From positions 24,020,501 through 24,084,500 of the forward strand of contig CM073595.1 of NCBI GenBank assembly GCA_037074705.1: a DNA stretch of 64,000 nucleotides, read 5' to 3'. Positions 11,163 through 61,535 of this stretch are shown here, piece after piece; positions within the stretch are counted from its first letter, which is position 1, and each line of letters opens with the position of its first letter. Position numbers and translations under genes: made by a program. A model generated the notes under the pieces. That model had not been told where the DNA came from and ran no database searches. It saw only the letters and a list, made by a program, of their open reading frames with translations. The DNA comes from Zhengitettix transpicula (lineage: Eukaryota > Arthropoda > Insecta > Orthoptera > Tetrigidae).

Positions 11163-11202
11163 ATATCTGAAGAGGTGCTGATGTAAGCAAGAAACGTCGT
11201 GT
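11163..11202 (+). ncRNA. Hammerhead-ribozyme-like motif A
   Basis: CTGAAGA (11167-11173) is followed by a stem II hairpin whose TGCT and AGCA pair, then GAAAC (11191-11195) and the NUH site GTC (11196-11198). Flanking atat (11163-11166) and gtgt (11199-11202) can form a 4 bp stem I with two G-U pairs. Stem III would be only the self-complementary ACGT, as in hammerheads that work as dimers. A module ttattctgatttatttggcc follows about 45 nt downstream. All core residues of the CUGANGA/GAAA consensus are present. Activity is not shown. Confidence 0.55.
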
Positions 11203-11759
11203 ATGTCTAACAAATTTGTATGAAGAATTTCTTTATTATACATTTTATTCTGATTTATTTGGCCATTAAAATTTATATTATAACTTTCAAGATTGTAATA
11301 TATATATTTAAATTCTATATATGATTTACTTCGGTCTGATGACTATCACTATCTGTACTTGTGAGAATAAAAAAAATTGTTATTTATATTCTGCTAAAAT
11401 CACTGATTCAGTTTATTAGAGATGAGAAAAAATAATTAATATACTGATTAACATATCAACGCAGAGACGGAAATTCTGAAGCTACTAGATACGTGAAAAT
11501 TCACGCAACCCTGTATAAATTATCATTTTTCTCGGTGAGTTTTTTATTTGCCTCTTACTTTACAGGCAATAATAACTCTACTTTACAGGTTAAAATAACA
11601 TTAATTTTATGCATATTTTGTAAATAAAATATTTTTCTAATAATTATTTGTGATTTCATAATACAACGTAAACTATTTCCTTATCAGGGGACTAATGGAA
11701 TTAATAATAACTAAGTTTCAATCAAATGCTCACACCAAAATGATCAAATGTCGAAATGA

Positions 11760-11860
11760 CTCAGGCCGAAACGTCCCATTCCCAGGCTAAGCTGCCTGTG
11801 CGTGCTCGGTGTTCACAAAAAGAAAGTAGAGGAGGACACTTTGCACCTGCACGAAAGAAA
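11760..11860 (+). pseudogene. hAT transposase C-terminal fragment (+ copy)
   Basis: This reads RLSCLCVLGVHKKKVEED, the post-dimerisation-domain tail of a hAT transposase. The opposite-strand fragment just downstream has the equivalent RLRGLCMLGVHRKRVEND. The two copies face each other. Confidence 0.5.
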
Positions 11861-11879
11861 ATACACAGAAATTAATATA

Positions 11880-12095
11880 TTTTTTTAATTAAAACTTAAG
11901 GCGACTAGGTTGATGTCCCAATTTGTTCATCTCCTTGTCAATGTATTCAGTGTCGTTCTCTACTCTTTTCCTGTGAACACCGAGCATGCACAGACCTCTT
12001 AGCCTCGCGTCTCCCATCCACGTCTTGACACGTCGTAACGTACTCAATGTACGTTCAATGCTTCATGTTGTCGCTGAAATAGATCAATGGTAGAC
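11880..12095 (-). pseudogene. hAT transposase C-terminal fragment (- copy)
   Basis: On the minus strand this reads ISATT-stop-SIERTLSTLRRVKTW and then RLRGLCMLGVHRKRVEND, ending near SRLKF. This is the typical hAT C-terminal dimerisation region with one in-frame stop. It is nucleotide-similar to the remnant at 9270-9345, so the fragments belong to one family. No intact element is present. Confidence 0.6.
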
Positions 12096-12529
12096 GTGTC
12101 TTAACCCCCCACAGTGCTTGTTTCCTGGTCGCAAGAAACACGTGGTCTAAATTTGCTCCATGGGTGTATATTTGTATGTGGAACATACATACATACAAAC
12201 AAACAGTCTATTTTGTTTATTAGATTTTTAGTTAAGAAAAATTTAATTTAATAGAATCACAGAAGCACATTAGTGGGTTTGGGGTTGAGTTTCTTGAATC
12301 GTTTTATTAAATTTAAATAAACTTTTCTGATTTGGCCTAAAGGGTATGGTTATTTGGGCACTTCACCATGGGTCTTTTTTTCGTTTTAATCCTCTCTCCG
12401 TTTCTCACGGTTTTCGTTGATCCCATTTATTCCCTTAATACTAACGAATCTCAAAACGAATGAGAACTGTGTTCAAAGTGAGATTAAAGATTAGATTGTG
12501 TGCTGTTTATGTTGTCGACGCGAAGTAAA

Positions 12530-12613
12530 CTCTGGCGACTGCGGGCGCATGCGCGCCGGGAACGTCCCTTTTTAGAACATCAGAGTTCGGGCTGCGAGGA
12601 CGCCGCATCAAAG
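12530..12613 (+). promoter_or_regulatory. Candidate receptor first exon with NRF-1/Ewg-type site
   Basis: A GC- and CpG-rich island in AT-rich surroundings contains GCGCATGCGC (12545-12554), the palindromic core bound by NRF-1 and its insect orthologue Erect wing. It ends at a good donor, aaag/gtaaga (12613/12614). The first coding exon of the glutamate receptor begins with an acceptor (tattccag, exon from 14531) and 27 nt of 5'UTR, so an upstream non-coding exon must exist. This is the best candidate I see. The link is inferred; transcripts would decide. Confidence 0.45.
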
Positions 12614-14530: not shown

Positions 14531-14557
14531 GAAAGCGGCGGACGCTACTAAGGAATA

Positions 14558-16233: not shown

Positions 16234-16285
<52 letters not shown>

Positions 16286-19200: not shown

Positions 19201-22200
19201 CGATGACATTACAAATTTCAGGTAAACAATACGCAGTAAAAAATACTACGCATTTTTTTTTCACATGTACCGAATGTGGTAGTCTTGAAAGTTTGTCATA
19301 ACCAATGGGAATCACAGTTTAAATGCATGTAAATAATTTATCTTTAAAAAATAATATAATTTTCTTTGAAATAGAATGCTCAGTTTTCTTCCAGGCCAGT
19401 TTTACGAAGAGTCAAACATTCTGGCGAAACTAATTTCGTACTGGATTGTGATATTGAGCACTTAGCTGAAGTGCTAAAACAGGCGCAACAAGTCGGCTTA
19501 ATGACCGACGAATATAGCTTCATCATTACGTCAATGGTCAGAAACAATTTTTTAAGAATAGAATTTCATAATTATTATTATTATGTTTTAATTACTAAGC
19601 TTACTTACAGGATATACATACAATTGATTTGGAACCATTTCAACATGGCGGCATAAACATTACTGGCTTTCGATTAGTCAATGCGTCAAGTGAATATGTT
19701 CAGAATACGGTTAATTCTTGGAAAGTCATCGAGCTCAATAAAACGTATGCTGGCCCAATTGAACCTGATAAACTTATGGTGAGATTTATATTATGAATAT
19801 ATATATATGAATTTTGCCGTTTTTAAAATGCTAGATTTATGAGGGACGCCTGAAACTATAGATATATTTTAGTAATTCCATTAGTACTCGCTTGAAGATA
19901 TACGATAGATCATAAGTGAAATTACAGATAGTTACCTCATCTTATGGTACGTGAAAAACAAACAAAAACATTTTTTTCTGTAAAATATACCTAAGAATCG
20001 AATATAATAATTACAGCCTAAAATACAATTAAATAACACTGAACACACGTAAAACGGAGTACTGTTTGATATTTGCAGAGTATGTTTACAATTCATCATA
20101 ACAAATAATTATTTAAACACCAAAAAGACGATCACTGAACAAAATAAATGTGAAACTACACACAGAGAGAAAAAGAATTTTATACTGAGTAACACAAAGC
20201 GCTAAGAAGCACACACACATACACAAGGGACGGACAAGTCACTTCTAGGAGCTGAACGATGAGAAATAGAGAAATTCCGTGGTCACTCCAGCCCTTGTAA
20301 GAAGGAAAGAAAAGAGAAGGCAAAACGGAAGAAAATATATGCAAGTCATGAAATAGAATATTTTACAAAGCAACACTTGCAAACTTTTACTGAAAAAATA
20401 ATTTCAACTAATAAGGGAACGCTCAAGAAACTACTGTACTGAGTAAAACCCCAGCGCCTTTCAATAAAATATTCTTACACTGATTCCCTAACTCTTGTAT
20501 TTATTATTGTTCTTCACCTCTGGAGGAAGACTATTGTATAAAATTACTGTTTGGTGAATACAGGCAATGCGATCACAATCAAATTTTACAATATGAGGGA
20601 GGGGGGGGCTGCATCCGCACTTTCTGCTGACTATACAAACCTCGGTAATGTTTATAACTCAATTACCTCAATAACATAGGCATTTGTTAAATAATGACAA
20701 ATAACTGGCAAAAAATGTTTATTTCATTCCTTACTAATGTGAAAAAATATTTAACTTTCTGTACTGTAATGACGCTTAATATTAATTGCCTGGTTTGCTA
20801 GAAATTTGCACAGTTGGAACCTAACTAGGGTCATGACGCAGTGAATGAAAGTGACTACCCCACCCGCCATGGTTATGGCTTTTAAACGCGCGGGGAAGTT
20901 GAGGTCTGCGACATAAAATGTTAACTGTCGTCTGCGGGCTGGTTTACGCTGAGCTAACTTGAAGTATTATAGGGCTGCATTGTTGAAGTTAGGTGACAGA
21001 GATGGAGAAGATTCATAATGGCCTTGTAGAGTAGAATGAGAAGGCTTTGTTTAATCTAGTTACTAGCAGTTCATATGATGATATGATATGATTATTACGA
21101 GCAGAATTTATGGAAGTTTAAAAATAATGGGAAGGGTATCTGGTTGCCACTTGAGTCAAGAGTTTAATCGAAAGTCGCTCCGCAGTCTTTCCAAGTTTCT
21201 GACTTCAATACAAGTTTTTTCCGATAATTTTAATCACAACGGTCGTAACACTGATTTAGGAACAATTTAATTCCCAATAAAATTGTGTGTGGCCCTCTCT
21301 GACGTTTCTTTAAGGAACAGCGGCTGCTATGATAAATGTATATGAGATTAAAGTGCCTCCATTCATGTAATATTTTCGATTTCTTCTTCAGAACAAATTG
21401 GTGCACAAGCAGTTAATGTGACTTATCCGTCAGCCATTTTCCTTTTAAGTATTAACGATAAAAATTGTGCTTCTAAGTATCCTACGATTTTGCAATTAAA
21501 GGATTTGTTTATATATATTTTTTAGGTTGAATCTGCTTTAATTTATGATGCTGTTCAGTTGCTTGGAGCTAATGTCAGAGATTTAATAGGTCTGAAAATT
21601 AAAGACAGCCCGCTAAACTGTAATACATCTTGGGGCCACGGCTACTCATTCATCAACTTAATGAGGGATGTAAGTTATTATAAACCTATTATTAAAATAC
21701 CTAATTGAATAATCATGAGAAACACCAGCCTATTGGTCAGAAAAAATATCAAATTTAAAACATAATTGACATACACGTTTCACCCCTAATTGAGACCTCT
21801 TCAGGTGTACAATTTCAATTAAATTCTGTTATATTTATTACATAAAAGTTTAGATAAATTTCCAATTTTCGGTCGCAACGTGTATACAAACTGCACGTTA
21901 GAAACTTATGTTACTCTAAATTTTTATATAACAAATATAATGTGATTTAATTTAAATTCTACATAAGAAGAGGTCTTAATCAGGCTGAAACGTTGAAATA
22001 TATAATGTTTTACATTTGATAATAATTTTTTCTGTTTAATAGGCAGGTGTTTTAAACATTTATTTAAAAAGAAGTTAGATAATTAAATTAATAATTACAA
22101 TTATGTACCTTAACAATTTTACGGAATTAAATTTATTTTCGCGTAATTTTTTGCCGATAATCCGCTAATCTAAAGATAGATATCCTGGCCTGTTTTCAAG

Positions 22201-28979: not shown

Positions 28980-29960
28980 ACATTTTTATTATGTTGCAAA
29001 TATGCAACATCATGCACATGTAGGTTCTAAATATGAACGGACAAACTCATAATCAATTCTAAACATACATTTGATGGGCAAAATGCTAAGATTTTAGACA
29101 TTGACACCAGGAACAATTCAGACTCATTTCAGAGATGCTTCACATTAAATTAAACATCACAGCTGTTGATGTACAAACAGACACTATGAAACTCAATAAT
29201 TGTTATGATCCCTTATTATTACGCTAAACCTTCTGTTTTCCCAGAGTCAGTGTTCCCTTATTGTTACAGTAACCCTTCAGCACTCCCATTGTCTTCGTGT
29301 GTTTGTCGCTTTTGTGTTCTGTCAACTGACAAGTGCAGTTGTGTCGCTTTAGGCTTTTCTTCACACCTGACGTAAGGAACAAGGATCCTAGAAACGTTAT
29401 GTGGTATTTATATTATCACTTTTTTGTCTGAATTGGCTATCTTTCTTATACTTCATGAATGGTCATTAATCTATAACGTCAAGTTTTTAATTTTTTTTTG
29501 TATCTGTAAATAAAATTTGGCTACAGTAAAATTGAATAGAATTTAAAATATAAGAAATCAAAAGTTTCTTTATTTAAAGTTAGTCAAAAATAAAAAGTCT
29601 TACTGAAATTAATCAAAATTTTGATCTGTAATAAAATTTTATTAAAATAATTACAGCTCTATTTATATATGAAAACAATTTTTATGCAACAATTATAATT
29701 AGGTCAATAACTCACACAATAATTGGGTAATTATGGTTTAGTGTCATTAGAATACCTTGAGAATGACGCTTAAATTTTCCTTCTTGATACAACATAAAAA
29801 AAAACCAGTAAATAAATTTTCTGACCGGCGAGCAGAAAAATCTTAACTGCATGCTTCATATCTACATCACAATTTAGGTCTCTTAGAAACCAACAGACGC
29901 CTCTGGGGTGATACTAAAAGTTATGTTGCATATATGCTACACTATGCACTAAAGCGTTAC
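28980..29960 (+). mobile_element. piggyBac-like nonautonomous repeat, copy A (interrupted)
   Basis: The 3' part (about 29700-29955) matches copy B at 41534-41998 and copy C (reverse) at 61037-61670: gaccggcg.gtagaaaaatct, catcacaattta, caacagacgcctctgggg and gttgcatatatgctacacta. The 5' part (28985-29030), with ttgcaaatatgcaa, matches the far end of copy C. The middle holds a hammerhead-like motif (29362-29404). The 3' terminus is decayed (gcactaaagcgttacg in place of gcactaaagggttaa). Confidence 0.55.
29362..29404 (+). ncRNA. Hammerhead-ribozyme-like motif C
   Basis: CTGACGT (29367-29373, one base off CTGANGA) is followed by a perfect 4 bp stem II (AGGA...TCCT), GAAAC (29391-29395) and site GTT (29396-29398). 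Stem I forms between tcaca (29361-29365) and tgtgg (29400-29404) after one mismatch. A ttttttgtctgaattggct module follows at about 29420. The A-to-T change in the core would probably kill activity. Confidence 0.45.
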
Positions 29961-30407: not shown

Positions 30408-33400
30408 ATGAAAGCTTCTCTTCTCCTGTGCCTCTGCGTCGCCCTGGGTATGTACAGTACCTCTGACCTTGTTCCGCCAACGAGCACGAGAAACCGTTAT
30501 TATCGAGTAGCGACCTTTTGGTCGGGAAAATGAAAGTTGCCAACGGGCTTGCATTCGCTGACTCCACACTTTCCGAGTCTCTGATCGACTGAAATTAAAT
30601 TTACACTTCATACAATTTTTTATTTCTAAACCACAAACTGCGACAGGAATATTAATTTAAGGGGCCGTAAAGAGTTGAAAGTTGCGGAAGGATGGAAAGC
30701 GCCGAAACACGTCATTAAGTTCAGTCCCATACAGATTGTCCGTCGGAGAGATTCTGGAATGGTGGGTTATGTGATGCGTTTACGCTTCCATCCGATACGG
30801 AAGTTGCTACGTAAGAACTCTAGAAGGAAAGTCGCTGTTAGGTGACAGTCGGAAATGACAATTGTACAAATCTTACGTTGGTTTTCTACTAGGCTTATAA
30901 TTCCGAGCGGAGGGGACAAATAACAGAAGTGGAAAAGTAGTAGTGAGGGAATGGAAGACCTTGCCTGCAAAATAAATGTTTAAGAATTTACCAAATGTAA
31001 TGTGCTTCTGTTTTGGATCCAGAATAGTAACTAATAAGTTCTTTTATATTACTCCAAAATTAATTTCTAATTTGTCTTACTAATGATCTGTTTAAATCAC
31101 GATTTATGAAATGGAAAGATTGTGAAAATGACAGCCCCAGTTTAGCAACGGTTTCTCGTGACCTTAGCTGTAACGTAGGTAAAAATCATTTCTAAAATAC
31201 GTACGGTACTGTGAACAATTCAGTCAGAACAATCTTGATCAAATTCCGCAAAGCTAAAGAGCGGAAATTCTCCAGTAAATGCCAAGTTCCGTCTTTTTTT
31301 TTTCAATTTGCCTACTATCTGATTACAGCTTCCAAACATTTACTATCATTTCTCATCCTTTTATTTTTTGGAAGGCAGTAGAAAGTGAAACAGCGGTCAC
31401 TGTCACTTTTCTACAGACGACCGCAATTTTAGAACGGTGTCCTTTACTACATTTGACATTTAACTGTTACACTGCACATTTTCTACGATTGTCCGGATAC
31501 AATTTTTTTTATTCGTTTTAATAGACTAGAGAAACGAGCTATTAACCGATTTGTAGAATAGAATCTTTCCCCAGTTCCTACAAAAACCTTATTTAACGAA
31601 TGCCTTTTTTATTGGGACGTATTGTTCCTAATTATATAAGAGCTTTCCTTTCTCAACGATTCAAATTATTGGCGATTTTTGCAATCTATTTTGCAGGTTT
31701 GGTTCTACGAACACTTTATCAGCGATATATAAACCTCACGGCATCTTCAAGTTCTTGAATAATCGTATCGTCGACGCCATTAAAAATTACCTAGTTACCT
31801 GTGGAGACTGCTCCGGTGTTTGATTTTTAATTTTAGATATCGGAAACACTTCTCAATCTCGTTACATGTGATTACTCGCCGATACTTGTGGGAACGGTTA
31901 AGAAAGTTTCCTGCTCACTCGCGTAAATACATTGTTTGGAAACTGCGCTTTCTCCTCGAGGCTATAATTCTATTCAATTCCGTGAATACTTCCAGCAGAT
32001 ATTGCTGCAGTACTTTTTTTTTTATAATCACGCACCAACGATATATAGGAACAATGCCGCTTTTATTAATAATAATTAATAATTGAAACGTTTTCAGAAA
32101 TAATATTATCATAAATTGCTACAACTTTATTTGTACTTTTATTTTTCTGAAATCAATTTCTCAGGGTCATTTGTATGCTAATATGCGATTTTTTTAAGGG
32201 GAGGGTGGAAAGTGTTGTTTGAGAAGAGGAAATCATAAAAATTAAATAATTATTGTTAGATTTCCCGGTTAATTCGTTCACTTGCAGTACAACAATTTAA
32301 GTAATTGCAATCGTTGTATTTTGTATGTTCAATGTCCTGGCCTGTGAATTGGCGCACAGACAAAGTCTCAGGTGACTGAGCGCCTCTCACTGCTGCCACA
32401 GCAGACAGTAAATTCCAGAAAATTGCACTCTGCTGATCAGCTTCATCATTCGCTCACGATTGTCCTGCTACAAATGTTTAAGCTCTTTCCCCCCCCCCCC
32501 AAACATCATAACCGGAGGACGGATTATCTAAGCAATGATAATAGAGTAGTACGAGGCTTATCACGTTCTATCAGAGAACTCGAGTCAGAAAAGTAATTAT
32601 CATGTTTAATTTCACGACGTTTCGTCCACTTTAGGGATCTCACAGGCGATAAATCACACTTCCTGCAATTGAGAATAAATTATATTTGTAACCTATATTT
32701 AACTAATTTTTTCGAAAAAATTTAACCTGATTTTGATGTATCTATGGTATAAAGTCTCATATTTATTATTCATGAAATTTAAAAATTCAATAAAAAAAAG
32801 AATACTAAACAAAAAAAATAGATGGTCAATTATCTGTGTAAGACGAAAATATAATGGATGCAATATTTCAGACCAAGCATCAAATCGTAATAATAATGAT
32901 AAACAACTGACTATAAAAATATAAATAAATTAATTAAAAATTATATTTACTTCCAGACTCAAGACCGTCTATTTATTTATATTATTACAAATAGTCAGAT
33001 ATTTTTTCATCATTATTATGATTTGATACTTGGCCTGAAATATCGCATCCATTACATTTTCAGATAATTGACCTTCAACTATTTTTGTGATTTTGTCATA
33101 TTTTTAAGTGCTTTTATTTTCCAAAGATTGCATAATACAATACGTCATGATTAATAATTAGTACATCTGTAGGTATACAGAAATACAAGTAACAAAAATA
33201 AATTATGTGGACTGTGCAAATAACGTCAGTTTGACGTATTTATATATAAAAAATTAATATTCACTTCGTTTATATATAGCTTTGTCAACCAAGTACTTTT
33301 TTTAAGTCAAATAATTTTTTTCCTTATATTTGTTTTATTCCTTCAGTTAATTTATTGAAAAACAACATGCCTGTTATCAGAAGGTCATTATCAGTTTTTT

Positions 33401-39400: not shown

Positions 39401-42400
39401 ATTAACTACAAGAAAAATATTCTTTAAATGTTTCAGAAATTAATTTTTTAGAAACTTTTTTTTTGCTACAAAAATTAACGAAACACACTGCTACATAACA
39501 TTCCAAACGATATAAATCAAGAAATATGTTTTAATAATTAACCCAGTCGTTCGTTAAATTAAGCAAAGATATAAAATGAACATATCTAACAAAGAATATA
39601 AACATTGAACGGTTTTCACCTTCGGTCGTGCTCATAAAATCAGAAAACAAAGCACCCGTAAAAATTAACGTAGCAAGATCATTTGTTATGTAAATTGTGT
39701 TATAATAGTTATCGGTACGCGTAGAAGCATAATCATATTCGAGGCCATGTTAACTATGAAGTTGATGTTCTGTTGTAAACTTACTGGAGAAACCTGAAGA
39801 ATGCGACATGATTATTAATACAAATCGAAGGCCCAAACAGAAACTAGAACTTGTTTGTGCTGAAATTTGTATTTCCCCCCCATTTTTTATATTGTTTGAT
39901 TAACTGTAATATTAATAGAGATTTTACCGTCGTATTCATTTTTATTAACTTATTGTATTGTATTTAGCTAGTTTTTCTATTGATAGTATAAAAGCTGTAT
40001 TGATAATAGCTGGCTGGAATACGAGATTGATGAACTAGACGACTGAAAACCGAAGAATAGACATTGTAGTTTTCTCTTGAAAAGCATATGTTTGCTGATA
40101 TTTCCCTTAAAAATTCAAAAAAGCTATATTTTTATTTACATGAAAATGATGAACATAACCTCTTCTGTTGTGATAATAATAATAAAATATAAATATATTT
40201 TTTCCCAAATATTTTAAGTTTTCTTTGTTACCAACAGAAGAGGTTTTTTAATCATTTTCATGAAAGTAAAAATATAGATTATTTAAATTTTTTGATATAA
40301 ATATATGTTTTCTTAGTTAATATAGTAAATAATAATAAAATATAAATATATTTTTCACAAATTTTTTAAGTTTTCTTAGTTAGGTAGAGATTTGTGGGAC
40401 ACTTGAATTATCCGTTAATACATGTTACAATGGATAAGTGTTAGAACGTTCTATTTCATAAATTGTCGACTATGAGACTCGAAAATCGCTTGTTTTCACA
40501 GGTGTATTATTGAAGTTAGTAATTTTTGGGTATTTATTATACACATGTTTAAATGCCAGGGTGGTGTGTGAATATTCGTGTGAAGAAACTGTGTGAAATG
40601 TATAATTAATTATTAGACGCCTTATTATGTGAAGATTCATTTCATATCCAATCAGGGTGAAATAAACACCAAAGATGTATTGCGTGTTGCATTCATTGAG
40701 GGACGCTCAGAATTTGTGACGAGGAGTCTATGCAATGGATGAAGCGCGTAAGCTGTATTGTGAGTTGTATATTGAAGTAATAGAATATTCTTGTGTACTG
40801 CATAATAAAACTTTGATTATTACATTTTAATATACGTTATTTTACCAGATTAAATTCGACTAAATACAAAAAAATTGATTGTGTCATCTCTCGAACGTAA
40901 TATAACTGATTCACATGAAGTTTGTGATTTTTAAAATAGAACTTAATTATTACAGACAGAATAAAATATCCATCGCACAATGGGGGTCCTGCCACGGGTA
41001 TAATATAAGCATCGTCTATTTCCTTGGAACTGTAGAATCGATATATTCAATTGTATCTACATCGCTTTGCTGTTATACAATACTCATGATTGAACTGAAA
41101 CGTTCTGTGACGAATTTCCAGGAAAATAAATAATAAGTTTCTTCTTATTGAAGAAACATTCAATATTTTTTACAAAGGTTAAGATGTGGCAGTTAACTAT
41201 CCTTTGTGTGGATTCGGAAATATATAAATAACTTGTCAAATAAAATACACACTTCAGTTTGCCTTCATGTACTCTTCGTCTCGATGACCGCAGAAATCTT
41301 GTGAAATGTATTTCGTAACAATATTTAATTTTCAAATTAGTACTTCTAAATTTTATAATATTGATATTTATATGTCTACCAAAAAAACAAGAAATAAGTA
41401 AATATAACGACCAAAGTGTCCGAAAATATTTATTAATCAACAATATAATTAATAAAATTAGAACAATATATCACTATGTTCCGCCCCTAATTAGGGAATT
41501 CATCAGATGAACAATAAAAAGATGAGACCTTAACCCTTTAGTGCATGATTTTTGTAATTTTTAAACCAAATTTTTTAGATGTATAATAGAAATAAACGAA
41601 AAAAAATCAAATGTGACCGAAGTGAATTTAGCTCATTATGTTGGACATATTCAACATAAATATATTTAACATTAATTGGATAAGTATTATTTTAGTGCAA
41701 TTCGAATAACCTGAGAATGATGTTTAAATTTTATTTATTAAAAAAACCACAGAAAATAAATATTCTGAAATTGACCGGCGGGTAGAAAAATCTGGCTTAA
41801 GGGGTTGACTCACATAAATCTGGGACAGGCATGTTATATAACCTGTCCACACATTACAAAAATTTCACATTCCCTTAAGTGCATGTTTGTTTCATATCTT
41901 CATCACAATTTAGCTCTCTTAGAAGCCAACAGACGCCTCTGGGGGGATACTAAACGTTATGTTGCATATATGCTACACTATGCACTTGCACTAAAGGGTT
42001 AAGCCTTCATTAATATTATAATCTAAAACTTCGTCAAAGATATTGAGTATTATGAGGAATTTTATTGGATACTCTTCATGCAATTATTTGTGTTCCAAAA
42101 ATTACTTAATATGTAAAAAAAAAATTGAATAAATTTTAAAAAGCCGAAATTTTCGTTTAGAATAGACACGGAAAAAGTACCATGCTTTTAAAATTTATTT
42201 AAAATTATGTTATATAATATAAAATAATGTTATGTTATTATTAAATAATATTTGGAACCTAATCATTCATCATCTTGGAAGTGGATACAATTAAAATATA
42301 ACAATCAAGTTATTTGATTTTTTTTATATAATATTAATCAATTTGTAAGGTCTCAAATTCTTTTAATTGTTCACCTGATGAATTCCCAAATTTTCGACGA

Positions 42401-45400
42401 TACGTAGTGATGAATTGTTCTAATTGCGTTAATTATATTGTTGATTAATAAACCTTTTCGGACTGTTTGGCCTTTATATTTATTAACTATTATATTTTGG
42501 ACAATTGTTTAATTTTCAATAAAATATTATCGCGCCGGTGTAATATATTTATCCTTAATCCGGCATGAGTTGTTTTATTTGTCGTAGAAAATAATCGACA
42601 TATGCAGAATAGGAAGTTAAAATTAACATCCTATAAAATCGGGTAATAGCTACGCAGCTTGTTGATAACGAGTAACCGAGAAAGAGTAAAATATTGAGTC
42701 CGAAACGATAAGGCTTGTTGAGGAGAGGCTCTTCAGGACTACCAGGCGACCACATAACATAACTTTCTAATTTATTCCGAATCGGTTTCTGAATAAGCAA
42801 CACTTTCGGCTGAGCCTCTTACAAAGAAGCCAATCTCATATTACGGTAACGAAGTGTGAACCTATATCAAAAATACTTTTCTCCAAGAGAAAATGAATAG
42901 CTGTTCACAATACTATTTCTTCAACTTTTGTTGATCCCCTGCGTTTACAACAGACTTTCAGTAGCGTTACTCCAAATATATATGACGCGTTTGGGCTTGT
43001 TACTTTTATTTATTGTTTTTATTATAAAGATGTATCTCTGAACCTTTATTTAACGTCCTGCTTTTATTCCAGCGCCAAAATATTACTCTTCATACCGCGG
43101 CAAATATCTCGACGGTTTTTATTTGCATAAGATTAATTTAGTTTAAAACTTTTCAATTACACTCCCTATGATATGTATTTATTTATGACGTTTTTACATT
43201 TCATCCCATTAATATATTTTCCAACTTGCAATATACGCGAAATTAAAATAAAACGTCATCTGCCCGAGCACATACGTTCTTAAGCCTGACTTTGTCATCA
43301 AGTCCTGTCTGTTACGATATATGATACGGCTCGTTTCAGATGCTATTGTTTAAAAATTAATTTTTATTTAAATAATTTAGGAAACGTAAATAAATATTTT
43401 TTTAAAAAATTCAGGGTTTAATTATTATTTATAGATATAATTCACAATTTTCTTTAATATTTGCAGATAATATAATTTATCTTTCAATCTGAGGGTCACC
43501 TTGTAGGTATTCGGAAACGTCTGTTTATAACATTAGCTTTTCTTATAAATGGCAGTTTGAAGAAAAGAGAGTGTTTACAATTTGCATTTATCTCCGACCC
43601 TTTTCTCGGAATTCCCAAATTCTTCATTTCTGCCTGTCTTCCCCTGTCGAGTACGGGTTTAGCTCGTCTCGTCAAGATAGGTCAGAGTATAACTAGAGAT
43701 ACAACCTTAACAACCTCAACAACCAACTCTCAGCAATTTCACCACGAAGCTCCACATATCCAAAAAAATTCTTTCATTCTGTTCAGGGGGTTTCATCAAT
43801 TGTTTTCTATCCCCGCTTTCAAGAAATTATCTCCAACTTTCCGAAATTACCCCAATCATATCCCTAAGGGAGCTAACTTAAGCGTCATATCCAGACTTAA
43901 AGTAAATATCTGTGACATAGTTTCACTAGTTCAATTTTTCCAATATCTATTCGCAAACTTACGCCATTAAAATAAACCGCCATCTGTCCGAGCACTTACG
44001 TTCTTAAGCCTGGCTGTGACGGCTTGTGTTAGTCCAGGGTCCACTCAAGCCTTCACAGAATTTGTTTCGGAATGTGCTTAAGTAAGATATTCCTAAAACT
44101 GGCGAACTGGAGCCGACAGCTCGGATCACGTTTTTCCAATCTTCCTAAAAATTTTTAAAACTTTTCGTTCACAGTTTTCCCTCCATTTCAAATTCAAAAC
44201 TGAATTATTTTCGGTCGAAACTACAGTGGATCTGTCCATATTACACATTTACAAATAGGTGTAATATTTAAATACACGATGAACTTGGACGGGTGCCAGT
44301 GATTTTTCCACGTATAATCATCCTGATTTGTGGTGGATAGAAGTTATAATGCGATTGTTGCAAATTAATGACATTTATTTACACAGGAAAATATTATAGA
44401 TCTGCATATAAATCAGGCCAGTATTGAGGAAATCTCAATATAACGTTTTCAAATTGCGTGTAATCTTTGCATTTTGCTTATTTTTACTACTGTTTAAGAG
44501 TTTCTAACTTTTCTTTATTAAAATGACGTTCGCTTTCATCGAAACGTCGCGCATACAATTTTTCACTCTGTTAGAAGCCCGAGGAGATTTTATTCATTCT
44601 TTACACCGAGAAAGACCGCATTCTTTATTACCTTAAAAATTGTTTAATATTATAATATAAAATTTCTTCAAATAACTTGAATGTTATATTTTATTAGGTT
44701 TCTTTAAATATTTGTTATTAATTTAAATAACTTAGAAATTTATTACAATGTGCATTTAAATTTGTTCGCTATCATTCTGTATATAGACACACTCGTAATC
44801 TACAGCTAACGTACCACTGTGATCAAAAAGTAAGGTGAAATTGTTATTGAAAACTCCCGGGTATTAGGAAGGCAGGTATTTTTCTTTCCTAAGTTGGTAG
44901 GACTGTCTATAATATTTACCAAGCGTCTGTTTCTTAAAAGGTTTAATTATCTCCGAGTTACACGTGTTTCTGTAAACAACCAAAGGTGAATTTTTCGATT
45001 TTTGCGATGGGTGATTTTGTTGAGCAAAGAACTTGCATCAAATTTTGTTTGCGGGACGAATATTCTTGTGCGGACACGTTGAAAATGTTGCGGAAGGTCT
45101 TTGGTGATCAAACTATGGCACAAAAAAACGTTTATGAGTGGTACAACGAGTTCAAAGAGGGCCGAGAACGCATTGAAGACGAACCGCTCTCTGGACGACC
45201 ATCAACGTCTACCGACGAGGGCCACGTCCAAAAAATCAAAGATTTGGTGCTTGAAAATCGTCGATGGACAATTAGAGATCTCGCTGATAGTGTTGGAATA
45301 TCGTTTGGCTCAGCACAAACCATTTTGAAGAATGTTTTGTGTCTCAAACGCGTCAAGTCTCGATTGGTGCCAAAATCGCTCAATTTTTTGGAAGAAAAGC

Positions 45401-48040: not shown

Positions 48041-48044
48041 TGAC

Positions 48045-48296: not shown

Positions 48297-48489
48297 AATG
48301 TTAAACTGACAATTTGGAATATTATATTGATGACAGGTTAATGAAAGGTTTTTAACTAACGTGAATATTTTAATAATCAACGCATCTCTAAAATGACCTT
48401 AGAATTTACGTTGACAGCTGTGATCCTGATTTATGTATCGGTGCACATGTAAAGTAAACCACCATCACTTACGGCTAAATTTTCAAGTC

Positions 48490-48755
48490 GGAAAATTGAT
48501 AGGTCATCATTCTATGCTGACTGTAGTGGCCGAAATTAAACGTTTAATTTTACAATCATAATTTTTTTGGACTAAAAATTGTCTGTTTATTTATTTATTT
48601 CGGCCACGGCAGTCAGCATAGAATGACCTAACAATTTTTTTAAAACTTGAACCTTATGAAGTCGCAAAATAAGCGATGAAACGTTTTTTAATTTTACAAC
48701 AATAAATTATTTTTTCTGACTAAAATTGGATGATGTTTATTTATTTATTAGTTTT
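48490..48755. mobile_element. Foldback element F with degenerate hammerhead-like motif
   Basis: The segments ataggtcatcattctatgctg and cagcatagaatgacct flank a centre that also carries two taatttttt..ggacta/ctgactaaaattgg-type segments. The right part (48640-48755) matches the family at 61.3-61.6 kb: ttgaaccttatgaagtcgc, aagcgatgaaacg, ttttttctgactaaaattgg. The motif has CTTATGA for CTGATGA, an intact stem II (gtcgc/gcgat) and GAAAC at 48678-48682. Confidence 0.5.
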
Positions 48756-49070
48756 CTAGAGAATTTTTTGGCAACGTTTGTTATTTGTGACATGAAATGT
48801 TTACAACATTTTACACAATTTACAGTTTTATTCACCCTTAATTAATTTTAGAACCTGAATAATCCACTAATTCATCATGAATTAAGTTACTAGCTGTAAT
48901 ACTGATGATATCTTCCATTAATTTAACGTACATTCGACATCCAAAGTTATTCTTTTTATCATTCCTACAAACAATTCCCGCTATATCACAAATTTATTCT
49001 CGTTTTAAATTTTTGTGTCTTTTGCAGGCGAGAAAGGTAACCTAAGTTTATAATATGCAGCAACTGTCCG

Positions 49071-50300
49071 CATTCCCCCCCCCCCCCCCGAAGTAAGCCT
49101 GCGAGAGGATTTCTCGCAGGTGAACCTTCCCAGAGAGCTCTGGCGGGGGCTACCTTTGGGGATGCTCTCACATCTCTCTGGTTTTTTTTTTTTTTGAACT
49201 AAGGTTCCCACATGCCGAGGCACCTTGGTCTGTTTTGAGAGGTGTATGTTCCGGGGTCGCAGACCTTGGGCATACGGCAAGAGTTGTCCGCTATTCCTAT
49301 TGGAATAGTCGGCCAGCTGCCTCCTAAACAGGCCAAGGCATGGCGAGGGGTAAGCTGCGTCCCCACAGCAAACTCCTCTCCCGTCATCGGAAGGGCGTGG
49401 GACAAGTACCAAATGCCCGACCTACCCGATGCAGGTTATTTATAGGGTTTGTCCTGCATTACTTTTAGGCGAATGCCGGGTAGGATCCTTAAAATATAGC
49501 CCGGGGGCCCTAGTAACCCTTGGCTACCTTCCTCTACCCTTCCGCATCCCCCCTTTCAAATCCCTTTCCTATGCTATAAGAGGGGAGTTGCCACTATGTG
49601 GATTACCCTATACATAGCCTATCTACACCCAAACAACAACAACAACGCATTCCCCCTTTATTCCCGCTCCTAACAGAGCCTGCGAGAGGATTCTCTCGCA
49701 GGCAACCTGCGAGGGATGTTCTCTCGCAGGCAGAACCTTTTAGGAGAGATACGAAGGGGCTACCTTTGGGTATGCCTTTTCCTCTCCGTATTTGAACTAA
49801 GGTTCCCACAAGCCGAGACACCTCGGCCTGTTTTGAGAGGTGTATGTTCCGGGGTCACAGACCTTGGGCATTCGGTAAGAGTTGTCCGCTATTCCCATTG
49901 GAATAGTCGGCCAGCTGCCTCCTAAACTGGTCGAGGCACGGAGAAGGGAATGCTGCGTCCCCACAGCAAACTCCTCTCCCGCTATCGGAAGGGCGTGGGA
50001 CAAGTACCCAATGCCTGACCTACCCGATGCAGGTTTTTCTAAGGTTTTCCCTGCATTTCTTTAGGTGAATGCCGGGTAGGATCCTTAAAATATAGCCCGG
50101 GGGCCTTAGTAACCCTTGGCTACCTTCCTCTACCCTTCCGCATCCCCCCTTTCAAATCCCTTCCTATGCTATTAAAGGGGAGTTGCCCAAAGTGGATCAC
50201 CCTCATTTAGCCTGCTGCCCTAAAAAAAAGCATTCCCTCTTTCAAATACCTTCCTATGCTATTAAAGGGGAGTTGACCAACGTGGATTACCCTCATGTAG
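49071..50300 (+). repeat. Tandem ~580 bp repeat (two full, one partial unit)
   Basis: Units begin near 49071, 49648 and 50231, each at a cattccc segment. They share gttcccacatgccgaggcac, ggtcgcagaccttgggcat, gaatagtcggccagctgcct, gggcgtgggacaagtacc and gccgggtaggatccttaaaa. The third is cut after ~70 bp by the non-LTR element. Unit ends carry palindromes (separate entry). GC content is far above the surroundings. The open frames in them are not conserved between units, so I treat them as non-coding. The family is unknown. Confidence 0.85.
49678..49730. repeat. Twin short palindromes (gcctgcgaga / tctcgcaggc)
   Basis: Two adjacent hairpins, 49678-49703 and 49706-49730, each have a 10-11 bp stem and a short loop. 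A third of the same kind is at 49098-49120 in unit 1. They recur at the same place in each unit, where unit 2 has gained a second copy. Confidence 0.8.
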
Positions 50301-50301
50301 C

Positions 50302-53300
50302 TAGATAGATAGATAGATAGATTTATTCACCATTAGCCCTCTAAAGAGGAAATAGGATTCGTCACAAATGTACAGTAGATAAAATGCATATAAACTTATA
50401 ATACACAAAAACACACACAAAAATTCATATCTGTTTATATTAGTCTAGTCACTACAATCATACACACTATTTTTAGGAAACACGCACACGACACAAATCA
50501 CTTCCTGGTATTAATCTCCTGTCGCTAGGTACGGAGGGATGTCGTCATAGATATTTACTAAAACAGAAAGCAGAGGCAGGAAAACAGAACCAAAAGGGGA
50601 AAACTGGACAAACTATTTACATATTTATAGCATATTCGGCAATTTTGTAGGCAAGGCAGTTCAACGAATGTCAGACCGATTCAAAAATTCGTGTACGGAG
50701 TAATAAGTTCCATTGACAAGGTAAGTTTTACACTCCTTTACGAATAAGTTGTAGTTGTTGATGTTCTTTACATGATCAGGAAGGCTGTTAAATAGTGCGA
50801 TACCGGAATAATGAACGCTAGACTCATAGAGACTGAGGCTGTGCTTGTCAGACCTAAGAACTGAACGGTTTCTTGTGTCATAGCCATGATTGTCCCCGTT
50901 ACTTGCAAAAAGGTTCATGTTGCGTTTAACAAATTTTAGTATTTCTAATATGTAAGCGCTAGGTAGAGTCAGAATATGGAGTCTTTTGAACAGCGGCCTG
51001 CAGCTTTCTCTAGCATCTGAATCTGATATAATTCTAATGGCTCGTTTTTGCAGTTTGAAGACATCCACACTACGAGAACAATTGCCCCAGTTGGCAATAC
51101 CGTAACACATATGTGAATGAAAGTAGGCAAAGTAGACTAGTGAAGCAGTTTTGGTATCAACTTGTTGCGTCAATAGTCTCAATGAGTAACAAACAGAACT
51201 AAGTTTGCGCACGAGGCGATCAATGTGCAAGTTCCATTTTAATTTCATGTCGACTTGCAAGCCGAGGAAAGTCGCATGATCAGAGAACTTATCCGTTACG
51301 ATGTTGTTGGTTTCTGTTGTAAAACGAACTAACTTAGTTTTCTGTACATTGAGTGTTAATTAATTGGCGGCGAACCAAGTATTTAGGTCTCTAGATGCAG
51401 TCTCAATCTTCGCATTGAGATTATTTAAATCAATGTCCGTAATTAACAAATTAGTGTCATCTGCGTATAAGACAGATTTTATAGGGTCCATATATTCTGG
51501 AAGATCGTTAATATACAAAAGAAAAAGCAGGGGACCTAATATTGAGCCCTGAGGCACGCCACAAGAAATGCCCTCCCATTCTGACAAGTGCACCTCACCA
51601 GCTTTGTTTTTTAAGGCTACCTTCTGTTTCCGATTGTTGAGATAAGATTCAAAGAGTGCCAAAGCGTTGCCTCTGATCCCATAATATTCTAATTTTTGGA
51701 GGAGTATGCTGTGGTCTACAAGATCAAATGCCTTCGAGAGATCAGCAAAAATTCCGGCTACCTTCAGTTTTTCATCAAGGGAATTTTGTATACTCTGAAT
51801 AAACTCGTACATAGCGGTGCTCGTGGATTTTTGTTTGAGGAAGCCGTGTTGAGCAGGAGTAATTACTTTATACTTCGTCAAGAATTCAAGTAACTTTTTG
51901 TGTAAAATTTTTTCTAGTATTTTAGAAAATATCGGAAGTAGAGAAATTGGTCTGTAATTTGATGCGTCGGTGGGCGAACCCTTTTTGAAGATCGGAATAA
52001 CTTTAGCGGCTTTAAGAGAGTCGGGAAAAATGCCGGTAGAAAGACACGCGTTGAATATGATTTGAAGGGGAGTAGCTATGACTTCGGCACAGTAGTTCAC
52101 GACTTTGCTTGAGATGCCATATATATCCGCAGATTGGGTACATTTTAGCTTTCTTATTACGTTTATTATTTCGATACTGGTAACCGGTTGAAGAAAAATG
52201 GAATTCTGAACACTCGGTACGGCGTTTTGTAACAGTTTATAAAAAGCACGAGCTTCTGATGGCTTATTATTAGAAAATTGATCCGACACATGAACAAAAT
52301 ATGAATTAAATATACCCGCAGCGTCTCTGTTGGTGAAAGTGTTTCCGTTGTCGACAAGCTTTATATCTGCCACGTTATAATTGACTTTACCTGAGATATT
52401 TTTAATCACCTCCCAAGTTGCTTTTATTTTGTTATTTGAGTTTGCTATATACTCCGATGTATGTAATTTTTTAGCAGCTACAAGCACTTTCCTGTAGATA
52501 CGTCTATAAGATCGGAAGAAAGTCAAGAATTGTGGCGATGAATTAATATTTTTAAATTTATTCATTTGGCAGAGCCTTTCGCGAGAAACTAGTATGCCTT
52601 TAGTTATCCAATTTTTTACTTTGATATTGGGTCTATTCTTTAATTTAAGTGGAGCTGTCTCGTTGATGACTAATAAGAAATAATTTAGAAAAGTTTCGAA
52701 CATGTCATCAGCATTCTTAGTTTTATTAACATCTAAAATAAAATCCCATTGTACGGTCTCTAGTCTATTTGCGATAATTCTGAGTTTTGCAGAGTTAAGG
52801 TTTCTAGTAAGTAGTACTGAGTCTTTAGGGCTAGGTTTGCAGATTATTTCACTCTTTATGTTCATTAACATACCCTTGTGATCGGATAAACCTGTTTCTA
52901 TTATATTAACATTGTAAGAATCTATGTGAAGGTTACACAACAAATAGTCAATGCAAGTTTCTGAAAAGGCAACTCTAGTGGGATCTAAGTTAGTGACGGA
53001 AATGCCGTAGGATTTAAGCATGGTCCCAAGGTCGCGTTTATTACTGGACTCGCGCAGGTAGTCAACGTTGAAGTCGCCTGATACAATAACAGTCTTATTT
53101 TCCGCGTTGATTTTCCTTAATACACGGTCTAAAAGCGAAATAAAACTTGCACAATCGCTACCCGGTTGGCGATAAATTGATAAAAATATGACATTTTTAG
53201 AATTATTAACGGTTGTTAGTTCAACTGCACTGCACTCGAAAACACATTCACGACTGAGATTACGAATGTCTGGCCTATCTTTGCTCTTTTCTAATAGCTC

Positions 53301-53405
53301 GTTTTTAATGAAAATGCACGACCCCCCATTTTTCATTATTGTTCGACTGAAATTTGATACCCTAGCATAACCCTCTAGGACAAAACAATTAGCTTCGTCA
53401 AACAA
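50302..53405 (-). mobile_element. 5'-truncated non-LTR retrotransposon (Jockey-like)
   Basis: A 3.1 kb element runs right to left. Its 3' end is a (TCTA)n tail (50302-50322). It begins inside the endonuclease domain at about 53405. It sits in the third ~580 bp repeat unit: left flank cctcatgtagc, right flank ttagcccgtttccctaaaaa, which resembles the unit's ttagcctgctgccctaaaaa. The shared TAGC at each side may be the target duplication. ORF1 and the endonuclease N-terminus are absent. Confidence 0.8.
50661..53405 (-). pseudogene. Endonuclease/reverse transcriptase ORF with one in-frame stop
   Basis: One continuous frame of about 914 codons broken only by a TAA at 51362-51360. The APE-type endonuclease part has VIVSGDFNVDY and TGLSDHKGM. 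RT motifs follow in order: LPIFSKILEKILHKK, AGIFADLSKAFDLVDH, GVPQGSILGPLLFLLYINDLP-like and VLYADDTNLL (catalytic YADD). After the stop come LNVQKTKLVRF and a post-RT segment with YGIANWGNCS and FKLQKRAIRII, ending at 50661. The single nonsense change suggests a young copy. Clade by motif is Jockey/CR1-like. Confidence 0.88.
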
Positions 53406-53412
53406 TTAGCCC

Positions 53413-56651: not shown

Positions 56652-58740
56652 TTTCATGTAATTAATTGTAAGTAATGTTCAATAAATTTTTAATTAATTA
56701 TATTATTAAGTATCATGTTTGTAAAATCTTGCTTTGTTGTAATTATTAGAAACACGAATTTTGAAATTAGGTCATTTAATTGACTTTACAACACCTGAAG
56801 AAGTACTAATATATTAGGGATGAAGCTTTGATCATGTTTTTATATTATAATGTTTAAAAATTTAAAATAGTAATAAATTTATATCTAAATAGGTTGATGT
56901 TTTCATTTATTTAAGAACGTCAGACAAATATAACTGTTAAAAAATTTGTATCTTAATTGATCATTTCTAAGCATATTTATTAAATGAATCACTACCAATT
57001 GGAATAGTTTCCATATTATAGATAGAGATAGAAATTATAAATCCGGATAAGTATCAGAAATGTTATACATTAAACTTGTATTAAATTCTCTTTATGTTAA
57101 AACCAAGACTGAGTCTTTAAGCAATAAAGTTGATCTTCCGAAACTGTATACCTTCTCGCTCAGCGGTCAGGATTTAGAAATGGGCCGGGAGGAGGAGGAT
57201 GTCCGCTCATGCCACGGCCGCTCAAAATACGGCGCCAAGAATTATCATGGTGCTAAATCAGGGGAATAGCGAGGATTCTCAAGGACTCTGGTCCAAAACT
57301 GCGTTGTCTGTTGCAACATCAACCCATTCTTCCACAATTATGGAAGCTTCATTTCGCAGAATTGGCTCAAACTTTCTTTAGATAACTGTTAATCCACTTA
57401 TTCCATCATAACGCTCTGTGGATATCGACAAAAATGAGAAGCATTGCCTTGAACTTCAAGAATGCGTGCTGTTTTCCTCTTGAAGAATATTATGTTTACG
57501 GAGTTCTTTTCTAATAATCTGACTACTATGTTTCGACTCGTTTCACGAGAAACCTGATCTTAAAACGCTGATCAATTGGTAGTGGTAGACTGATAACCCA
57601 CTGATACTGAGTCTCCCATTGGATTGTAACACAGTTCAAGGCCGAACATAACAACCGCGTAATAGAATACGGAAAATAATAAGTTTTAGAATTAGTCTCA
57701 TTACGTTTGTTTCGCGGAATGGCTTATGTTTGGCGATACATAGTGCCGCGTTATAGAAGGTGACGAATTATTTTGTATAATTTTCCCGTCTTGTGACTTT
57801 TAAAAGGTTCAACGTTAATTGAATTGAAAGCAATTTTACAAGTTTTTTGTCGAGTGTACCGTGACTGATATACTTGTTACAAAGTAAAAGGAAGTAGCAA
57901 CGTCATTGACACTAGGCGCACTGCAGAATACAACTAAACTGCATTACTTGTACCTTAAAGACATGGCATATGTTCGACTGGCGAAGTAGACTTCCGGCTT
58001 TCACCTGTGGAAGGTCGTCCGCTTAGATAACTGTACACTGCAATCCTGAGGTTATGACGAAACTCTTCACATCCTCTCCGCGATGTGACCTATCACCTTA
58101 TAAAACCACGTCAACTTACCCGTGCTGCCGTGTCTTCAGTAACTATATTCTTCAAATTGATCTGAACGAAAAATTAAATAAACTTTGGTCGGCTTAGTTA
58201 ATTCGTAAATCGAAATAATCGTAATTTTCCATAATGTGATGAAAGAAAAATAATATTCTGCTTCGGAACCCCAGAGAATCGTTTATCGATTCGTCGCACT
58301 TCGCTCATCGAACCTCTTTTCCAGACTCTCGAGAAGTGAGTTTTGGGGAGGTCCAGAATATTGGCGTTGGTATCAGTAATAAATTATCTCCTCGTCCAAG
58401 GTAATTTTTTTATACGATGAACCATATTTACAAGTTGGGAAATGGAGAAACGTCACATATGGCCAAATCTGGTACAGACGCTTCAATGCGCCAACAATTG
58501 CTACTTAAATTTGACAATTTTCACCATCGAAACAGCACCTATGCATCTATGATGTAAGAACACATTATTCAGGGCCAAATATGGACGTTTTTTTCTTTAT
58601 TTATTGGCTGAACGTTTCCAACAACAATGCATTTATTATTCGTCCTTTTTCAAAATAGTCGATGCGGTTAATTCGTAGTCCATCAGAAAAAAATCGTGGC
58701 AATCACCCTCGCTGATTAATTAACCAAGCCAGTTATGTGT
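56652..58740. other. Unassigned AT-rich sequence
   Basis: No supported gene. Near 56788-56825 a ctgaagaagtactaatatat-tagggatgaagc stretch resembles the hammerhead-like family but its GAAAC box is GAAGC and stem I is poor. A GC-richer patch at 57140-57300 is unexplained. Confidence 0.35.
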
Positions 58741-58900: not shown

Positions 58901-59330
58901 ATAATTCACTCTATTACCATTCTTTTTTTTATTCACTTCCACTAATTTTTGTTTGGACTGTGGTTTCTTCCCGGTTGTGTATTGGTGGATCCACCATGCA
59001 CCAACAGTTCCGTATCGATGTAGAAACTGCTCAGGATCACGACGAAAAACCGCCAAACACGTCACTGAATTGAACCACACAGCTGTGTAATTTTCTATGA
59101 GTAAACGCGGCATCAATCTTGCGAATATTTTTGCAGACATAATTTATCATGAAAATTCGAAATTACCGAGCTGTGGGACATAGCTGTAGCTTCGTCGACT
59201 TCACGCATAATTCATCGATAAATCAATACCACCTTATTGTGGGTTTCGGCAATCATGTATGACATAGTAACCTGGAGTAGACGTCGTGAACGATGTTCGG
59301 TACTTGTGGGTTTACTAACCTAATCATCTA
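58895..59330 (-). pseudogene. mariner transposase middle fragment
   Basis: Minus-strand frames read REVDEATAMSHSSVISNFHD and then AKIFARLMPRLLIENY, FRRDPEQFLHRYGTV and WWIHQYTTGKKPQSKQ. This follows the helix-turn-helix, VPRLL and first catalytic segment of Mos1/irritans-type mariners. The catalytic V(D)ET box is changed to VGAWW. Frame breaks occur and the termini are missing. Confidence 0.65.
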
Positions 59331-59799
59331 ACTATAACCGATTTCAAACGCTGAGTCAGAAGTGCCATGAACTTCATCATAAACATCTTTGATTTGCATA
59401 GGGTATTTTGAATTTCAAACCGAAGTGTTTAATTACGTCAAGAAGCTCGCTTTTGTTTCATTATTTGCTAATAAAACACACTAAATGCATTGACTAATAG
59501 TAAAAATGGGACGTAGATATAACTAAAATTTTAACAGCAGTGTATTACAATATGATGCTTTTTAGAATCTTTTCGATACCATCTCTTGGATTTAGTCAGA
59601 CTTACTGTAGGACTTATCATTTTTGAAACTGAAATGGGGAAATCATTGTAATTTACTTGATTTAATTTTAACTTATAAAACCTGACGTTGGAACATAAAA
59701 ATAAAACAATTATTATATACTAAACAGACCAGAGTGTTTATTTGTGTGTATGTATGTGCGCATGTCACCAAATTACGTACACGAGTTCCTTGCGGCACT

Positions 59800-60165
59800 G
59801 TAGGGGTAAGACTCATTCATCTTCCACCCCCCGAGGTGAGGGTCAAAATTTTCAAACATGTTCAAACGGCCGATATTTGTGTCGGATAAACATTTTTCGA
59901 GGTCAAAGCGATTTATAGCATTTCTACGGATGTTTTCTGTGTAGAATTTCAACCCCTTTCACCACGTTAAGGGGTAGCGGTATTAAAAGGAAAATAATGC
60001 GAATACAACCTAGATTGGAGTCTAATCCGGGATTATGGATGTCGCTAAGTTTAATTATGACAACCCGGCAACGACAGCCATGCAGATAGTATTACAGATA
60101 AAGTAAAAAAAATTAAATCAACAACTAAATAATTTACTCAATTACCATTCAATTTTAATTCACAT
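59800..60165 (+). repeat. Dispersed repeat X, copy 3 (longest)
   Basis: Contains attggagtctaatccgggat, atggatgtcgctaagtttaa, attacagataaagtaaaa and ttactcaattaccattca, as in copy 2. An extra 5' part (59800-59960) holds ccgatatttgtgtcggataa and a short inverted segment. Confidence 0.6.
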
Positions 60166-61344
60166 CCACAAAGAATATCTTTCAGAATTTTCAGTTTCAG
60201 GAACAATGTTCACTTTTTCAGCAGAAAAACCTCTGATATTGTTATTTATATATATATATGTATATATATATTTGACTCCATAATTGCATATATATTTTTC
60301 AAGATATATCTATGGTTGGATGAGTATAACTTTGAAGATTTTTCGATCTCTCAAACAACTGTTTTAGCGTCCGGACATATTCACAAAATACTTCAATTTA
60401 ATCTAGGAAACCTTATTATTAATAAGGTATTAATGAGTATTATGTTTATGTATTAACATCGGCGAAGAGAACGTTGCCATATATTCTTTGCCACAGTACA
60501 TTCGGAAGTGGGAATTCCAATAGAATCAGTATTCTTCTGACACACTTCTTTGAATATATTTGCGCAACTAATTAGAACGTTTTGCAAAATTGGTCCCTAT
60601 TTTTAAATGTAGACTTAAATTGGCTGTGATTAACCTGTCCCAATCCCTTCACCGCTCGAGGCTGAAACAGTCACGCAGAATCATTCTCCATAGCCCAGTT
60701 ATGCCTGCCACGGAAAAGTAACTATGAATGACATTTGCTTAGTGGAAAACAAGGACATTTACTGTAGAAAGAGATCTTGGGTTTCCACTCGGGTAGACGT
60801 TTCTGTCGTCACCTTCAAGGTGCTTAATAAACTGGGTGCAATTCACCCGAAAGATCACGAGCTTTAATAGATCTATTTAATAAAGGATATTACAATCGTT
60901 ACTTAAGTAATCCAAAGATAGTGGAAATATCTCAGTGTTGTCAGAGCAATTAAAAACCCTTAGAAATATCATAAAAAATAATTGAGTAAAAAATTCTTGA
61001 AGTAAGATAATGGCGCATTAACAAGCGTGGGCACTTTAAGATTTAGTACATAGTGTAGCATATACGGAACATAACTTTTAGTATCACTCCAGAGGCATCT
61101 GTTGGTTTCTAAGGGAGCTAATTTGTGATGCAGATATGAAACAACAGGCACTTAAGGAAATGTGAAACTTTAGACATCCATATACTTTAAATAATATTTA
61201 ATTTCACTGTAGAAAAAATTTATTTAGAAATACAAAAAAGTTATAATGATATATATAATTATATATTCTGACTATTGATAAAATTAATAAATAAATACAA
61301 ATCAGCCAATTTTTAGTCGGCAAAAAAAGAATGTATTAACTAAA

Positions 61345-61387
61345 TTAACAACGTTTCATCGCTTAATTTACGACGTCATCAGGTTAA
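61345..61387 (-). ncRNA. Hammerhead-ribozyme-like motif G1 (best preserved)
   Basis: Minus strand: stem I ttaac (61387-61383) pairs perfectly (5 bp) with gttaa (61349-61345). CTGATGA is 61382-61376, stem II is gtcgt/gcgat, GAAAC is 61357-61353 and the site GTT is 61352-61350. Every core position fits CUGANGA...GAAA...NUH. Stem III is only the palindromic ACGT, so if active it would act as a dimer. Confidence 0.6.
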
Positions 61388-61494
61388 AGGTTTTAAAAAA
61401 ATTTAATGGACAGGTCTTTATATGCTGGCTGCCGTTGACGAAATTTATTTCAGCTTAGGAAGACCTGTCCATCAAATTATTCTTAAAAAAACTT

Positions 61495-61535
61495 GAACCT
61501 GATGAGGTCGCAAATTAAGCGATGAAACGTTGTTA
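61495..61535 (+). ncRNA. Hammerhead-ribozyme-like motif G2
   Basis: CTGATGA (61499-61505), stem II gtcgc/gcgat (5 bp), GAAAC (61524-61528), site GTT (61529-61531). Stem I is weaker: aac with gtt, 3 bp. The same T-rich ttttttctgac..ttggctg module follows at about 61554-61580. Confidence 0.55.

Follow-up and report, generated by a model that had tools for sequence, protein, structure and literature searches.

We analysed a 64-kb stretch (G000:C6:24020501-24084500, the window) of the 994-Mb Zhengitettix transpicula assembly, in which ten sites carry a motif with the hammerhead ribozyme core, i.e., CUGANGA and GAAA together with a GUH cleavage triplet, and which probably derive from Penelope-like retroelements. 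All ten places at which an initial annotation of the window had reported hammerhead-like motifs bear the motif; scores below are those of a covariance model described in the next paragraph. The first site is found at 11159..11206 (+, 45.5 bits). Its upstream side adjoins a TA-rich stretch of 144 bp (11000-11143) that is 95% self-complementary. Two motifs lie head to head inside a self-inverted element at 21720..22052 (72.9% self-complementary): the one at 21766..21812 (-, 40.9 bits) has a G at the H17 place and is therefore probably not cleavable, and the one at 21957..22002 (+, 37.7 bits) has a decayed core. The motif at 29359..29406 (+, 44 bits) belongs to a family linked to GIY-YIG frames. 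The copy previously placed at about 32.63 kb occupies 32608..32653 (39.3 bits), starting at 32653 on the minus strand with one core base missing. The next two motifs are located in inverted arms that are 82% identical, 41395..41532 (-) and its partner of opposite facing, 42346..42485 (+); at 41467..41514 (-, 51.2 bits) GAAAC is replaced by GGAAC, and at 42367..42414 (+, 47.4 bits) by GATAC. A motif at 48645..48693 (+, 48.9 bits, core CTTATGA) is a member of the same family as the last pair, 61342..61390 (-, 51.7 bits) and 61491..61539 (+, 53.2 bits), both with intact cores. This pair is found within 61301..61595, a self-inverted element that consists of two head-to-head half-units and is part of a large repeat family (the 61-kb family).

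The exact pattern CTGANGA-N5..35-GAAAC occurs six times in the window compared to 0.78 times in shuffled sequence, where none of 100 shuffles reached six; four of the six sites are among those of the initial annotation. With no, at most one or at most two core mismatches allowed, a descriptor that includes the stems returned two, four and eight sites, respectively, compared to 0.03, 0.1 and 0.8 in 30 shuffles; three of the eight (48306, 52663 and 9425) are not among the ten and look like chance. The covariance model, R1, was built from the ten window sites (alignment A2), so their match to it is by construction; with filters off they scored 37.7-53.2 bits and the next match in the window 14.1 bits. 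In 19 other loci (numbered with the prefix L; 75 kb, partly overlapping) R1 yielded 59 matches at an expectation value (E) of at most 1; because L002, L004 and L008 lie within L031, L033 and L032, respectively, their matches occur twice. The model reaches families outside its training, e.g., at L018:2056 (37.1 bits), L011:1398 (28.2 bits) and L012:2895 (31.9 bits).

Stems I and II are maintained through compensatory change in three alignments. In A2 the covariation score was 0.473, compared to 0.256±0.059 after shuffling (0 of 500 shuffles reached the score) and 0.236 in the best slid register. Alignment A3, composed of 23 copies of which eight are from the window, gave 0.569 compared to 0.243±0.032, with slid registers at or below 0.206; not included were two window copies adjacent to that at 61.5 kb, the copies of the 61-kb family present in the loci, and matches that were partial or weak (L014:652, L011:1295, L033:5519, L014:1179, L014:912, L018:1931 and further members of the family). 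Alignment A4, composed of 12 copies absent from both A2 and A3, in which the GIY-YIG-linked family, whose copies are numerous and similar, is represented by only two, gave 0.644 compared to 0.255±0.051, with slid registers at or below 0.168. The claim that pairing is kept while the sequences of stems I and II differ is thus borne out on each alignment, and the absence of covariation, named at the outset as the outcome that would speak against it, was not observed in any of the three.

Alignments A3 and A4 also locate stem II. It does not start directly beside A9 and G12; a register that leaves one nucleotide unpaired after A9 fits better, with 78.3% of stem II cells paired in A3 and 81.7% in A4, compared to 45.2% and 53.3% in the canonical register, which was rejected as the poorer fit. 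Among 26 exact cores taken from the window and 16 loci with no condition on the stems, all four stem II pairs formed in 18 in the unpaired-nucleotide register and in none in the canonical one. This unpaired nucleotide, seen in most families, was absent from the initial annotation. The plus hammerhead of Chrysanthemum chlorotic mottle viroid has an extra nucleotide that also stands after A9, within a full three-stem fold and in a viroid, unlike the motif described here. What the two share is an additional nucleotide in the catalytic core (PMC6155905, PMC3705267).

As had been noted, stem III is only the palindrome ACGT (ACGU in RNA), which is loopless and does not form a stem III within one molecule. 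Such an arrangement fits dimeric action, and a reduction of stem III is known for hammerheads of the Penelope kind (PMC7761336). A downstream module proposed to be shared by the copies is present at most window sites, where CTGA is found 15-85 nucleotides (nt) downstream in 7/10 copies (upstream in 2/10) and TTGGC, with up to one mismatch, downstream in 9/10 (upstream in 5/10). It does not extend to most other families: in 12 copies of families outside the window CTGA was found downstream in only two (upstream in one) and TTGGC downstream in ten compared to six upstream; therefore, the module is not general.

In ten 6-kb stretches sampled at regular coordinates, 14 matches of at least 24 bits were found, clustered in six of the stretches, i.e., about one per 4 kb; the window holds ten in 64 kb. 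By simple arithmetic the sampled density extrapolates to approximately 230,000 copies in the genome, a number with a large error because the matches are clustered. The axolotl genome is some thirty times larger than this assembly. In that species, 126,247 motifs have been reported (PMC7229834). The hammerhead models of Rfam gave no match on the window or on the 16 loci scanned, a result that matters for repeat annotation. A genome search with RF00163 gave no match either, and none was obtained in control genomes, i.e., this search had no working control.

The motif is dispersed over repeats that are otherwise dissimilar, as the initial annotation had stated: the window groups at 11.2, 21.8/22.0, 32.6, 41.5/42.4 and 61.4/61.5 kb show no mutual match at E 1e-4, while their stems covary. 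The elements that host it look like Penelope-like retroelements. A search for the GIY-YIG frame gave 61 matches, with the best 150 of 1787 candidates scored, and 30 loci were fetched. In 22 of these 30 loci a motif of at least 23 bits is found within 450 nt downstream of the GIY-YIG on the same strand, at a distance of 178-419 nt (median 285), compared to about 1.6 loci expected, by our arithmetic, from the sampled density. The eight remaining loci are L034, L036 (with one at 672 nt), L040, L043, L053 (with a weak one), L055, L057 and L061. L050, L051 and L052 are alike and all three are counted among the 22; in the orientation and core tallies below L051 and L052 were omitted as copies of L050. 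Pfam assigns GIY-YIG in two loci (E 1.1e-6 and 9.1e-7). The same order is seen in the window, where a C-terminal remnant of the Penelope GIY-YIG frame at 29040..29224 (+; E 2e-19, split over two frames with 81% and 77% identity) precedes the 29.36-kb motif, which is located in a pseudo-LTR-like stretch (LTR, long terminal repeat) at 29230..29480 (+) that matches the DNA following GIY-YIG in other loci, the best ones at 81-87%. These data support the Penelope connection that had been suggested. For one main family the link to coding sequence is direct, and it is seen again at L038; for the remaining families it is inferred from the motif and architecture they have in common. The small repeats resemble pseudo-LTRs, and one family of them is placed after the GIY-YIG frame, an assignment that was missing from the initial annotation.

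Some individual GIY-YIG matches stand out. L038:1438-1701 is a divergent frame with distinct motifs of its own at 580 (-) and 1879 (+), both facing outward. L050, L051 and L052 (G000:C7:12680905, 12687258 and 12693609) contain GIY-YIG matches of equal score spaced by 6353 and 6351 bp; judged by this spacing, a unit that includes a Penelope element is repeated there in tandem. In the window, 56991-57134 (+) gives a weak match to the frame (40% identity, E 5e-4) and is perhaps an old remnant.

The orientation of the motifs, on which the initial annotation was silent, is consistent with a Penelope origin. When the GIY-YIG loci were tallied together with the window and the spaced sample, all eight pairs less than 300 nt apart were head to head (one of them, at L066, depends on a 20.2-bit match), and among pairs up to 1200 nt apart 12 were head to head, three direct and one tail to tail. 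At L011, a 61-kb-family locus outside this tally, neighbouring copies of different elements are also found tail to tail. The 61-kb pair itself is a single element of approximately 295 bp built of two inverted half-units. A search for this family listed 84 matches, with the best 40 of 2402 candidates scored, and most places occur twice as the query is self-complementary. After removal of places read a second time from the opposite strand and of L015, which duplicates L014, 17 distinct elements remained from 30 loci. An extra stretch of about 40 nt (a tail) flanks 14 of the 17 on one side only; three lack it altogether, and none has it on both sides. A defined insertion was found at L042:1944-2125, where a motif-bearing element of 182 bp resides within a Penelope frame. 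A target duplication of 14 bp borders this element, and the corresponding site is empty at six distinct loci (L044, L046, L056, L057, L062 and L063). Its arms match head to head (two mismatches in the first 30), the inverted arm carries just part of the motif, and a 31-nt extension is found on one side only. Head-to-head pseudo-LTRs, a one-sided tail and a target duplication, i.e., features of Penelope elements, are thus all present.

From the above data we conclude, with a probability of roughly 0.8, that the motifs are hammerheads of a dimer type, carried by Penelope pseudo-LTRs and by short units derived from these in head-to-head arrangement. Penelope hammerheads without stem III have already been published, and the motif described here is a new, very abundant member of this group. 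The published minimal type I Penelope hammerheads (Cervera and de la Pena 2014; Lunse, Weinberg and Breaker 2017; via PMC7761336, PMC6155905 and PMC7229834) share with it the conserved core, the lack of stem III, the location in pseudo-LTRs and the dispersed copies, and dimeric cleavage has been proposed for them. The present motif differs in its density, about one per 4-6 kb, and perhaps also in the nucleotide that in most families is left unpaired after A9, ahead of stem II. The endonuclease-bearing Penelope elements of Adineta vaga display inverted head-to-head pseudo-LTRs with a 31-bp tail on one, short target duplications and solo pseudo-LTR structures (PMC3846280), and the L042 insertion shows the same arrangement. 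In contrast to those elements, many of the copies described here are frameless short palindromes, and the text of PMC3846280 makes no use of the word "hammerhead". The PAc element of Anolis carolinensis is likewise a GIY-YIG element bearing a hammerhead, but there the frame starts at stem II (PMC11167929), whereas the copies seen here stand downstream of the frame.

A dimer-type hammerhead of this kind could function as follows. A lone copy would be unable to form stem III, and two copies, contributed by a single read-through transcript or by two separate ones, would pair via ACGU; cleavage would need such dimers because stem III is only ACGU. It would occur 3' of GUH and trim the RNA of the element. 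Reverse transcription may start within the sequence that follows the motif, and two alternative starts could yield the tailed and tailless forms; in PAc the tail has been linked to two adjacent reverse transcription starts (PMC11167929). The short palindromes would be moved in trans by the Penelope enzyme, and each palindrome transcript would also bear an antisense motif that competes with the ribozyme fold. A further-reaching proposal, which we regard as tentative and on the whole doubtful, is that the Penelope elements of this lineage use a dimer-only variant, characterized by the unpaired nucleotide after A9 and the ACGU stem III, that has diversified into many pseudo-LTR families with co-evolving stems and has spread to about one copy per 4-6 kb, mostly as short self-complementary head-to-head units with an outward-facing ribozyme on either strand; with palindromic ACGU replacing stem III, the ribozyme would then work only as a dimer.

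Several observations weigh against the assignment to Penelope hammerheads. The covariation is somewhat favoured by selection, both in A3 and A4, whose copies were gathered with the stem-assuming R1, and in A2, whose ten sites had been chosen for pairing in the initial annotation. The register with the unpaired nucleotide has a high shuffled mean (10.8/26, maximum 15), one family dominating the 26 cores, and the GIY-YIG-linked family has a weak stem II that fits neither register well. When folded alone by free energy, the 61-kb-family motif adopts another fold; stem II forms in the remaining three of the four strings folded. The GIY-YIG frame adjoins the motif only in the one main family and at L038, and no Pfam reverse transcriptase match was obtained in the pieces tried. 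A homologue found by search, P0003, gave an RVT_1 match below the cut-off (E 0.0029). The pieces upstream of GIY-YIG, which have no Pfam match, resemble a Penelope-type reverse transcriptase by motif.

The strongest competing explanation, to which we assign a little less than an even chance, is that the fold is kept for another use, such as binding of the Penelope protein or positioning of the reverse transcription start, and that the RNA is not cleaved in the animal. With PAc, hammerhead-dead mutants still insert in vitro and public reads showed no RNA ends at the cleavage site (PMC11167929). Stem III is too short for a monomer, and the strict core CTGANGA..GAAACGTH is intact in three window copies and broken in 7/10. 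It is intact in 7/15 copies of the spaced sample; by this measure many copies look dead. In the GIY-YIG loci, however, the core is intact in 21/34 copies, and conservation across 33 half-units is highest at the catalytic core positions (0.957 and 0.947, compared to 0.718 in the 60 nt upstream and 0.871 in the 45 nt downstream). The role of the hammerhead in Penelope elements has been termed a mystery (PMC7761336). The many families, the intact and decayed cores, the clean insertion and both tail states offer a comparative test, in which a working core can be related to recent transposition.

The inverted arms, small size and target duplication of the palindromic elements are those of miniature inverted-repeat transposable elements, i.e., of DNA transposons that would harbor the motif in their terminal inverted repeats by happenstance. 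This origin is very unlikely given the one-sided tail, found in the 61-kb family and again in the L042 insertion, and the position of the motif after GIY-YIG frames in most of the loci fetched. Equally improbable are retrozymes, i.e., non-coding tandem repeats propagated in the form of small circular RNAs, an option raised in the initial annotation. Type I hammerhead repeats have been reported in many invertebrates including insects (PMC7229834), but the direct tandem repeats and type I hammerheads with a stem III that define metazoan retrozymes are not found here: stem III is loopless, direct pairs less than 300 nt apart were absent from the sequence tallied, and at up to 1200 nt direct pairs are greatly outnumbered by head-to-head ones. 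Although loose patterns do yield chance sites, chance resemblance aided by simple repeat copying has a negligible probability, as the shuffles rule out chance motifs and neither the gap between 37.7 and 14.1 bits nor covariation across mutually non-aligning families would result from it.

A repeat of about 110 bp is found near three of the motifs (29842-29953, 41874-41986 and 61042-61143), with copies that are 87-94% alike. It was considered as an element body and dropped, since it has no convincing frame or fixed place. Blocks of approximately 100-260 bp in the region 48069-50301 recur at steps of 1115-1135 and 596-598 bp. An Rfam tRNA-like match (40.9 bits) is found at 7115-7174 (+), a place not called by ARAGORN. 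A Peritrophin-A chitin-binding domain is encoded at 36550-36846, and 44947-45868 (+) contains pieces of a mariner-like transposase with a helix-turn-helix of the Mos1 type; with the element named next, these contents suggest an insect or another arthropod as the source. At 50661-53405 (-) a long interspersed nuclear element displays long frames with endonuclease and reverse transcriptase (RVT_1, E 2e-26).

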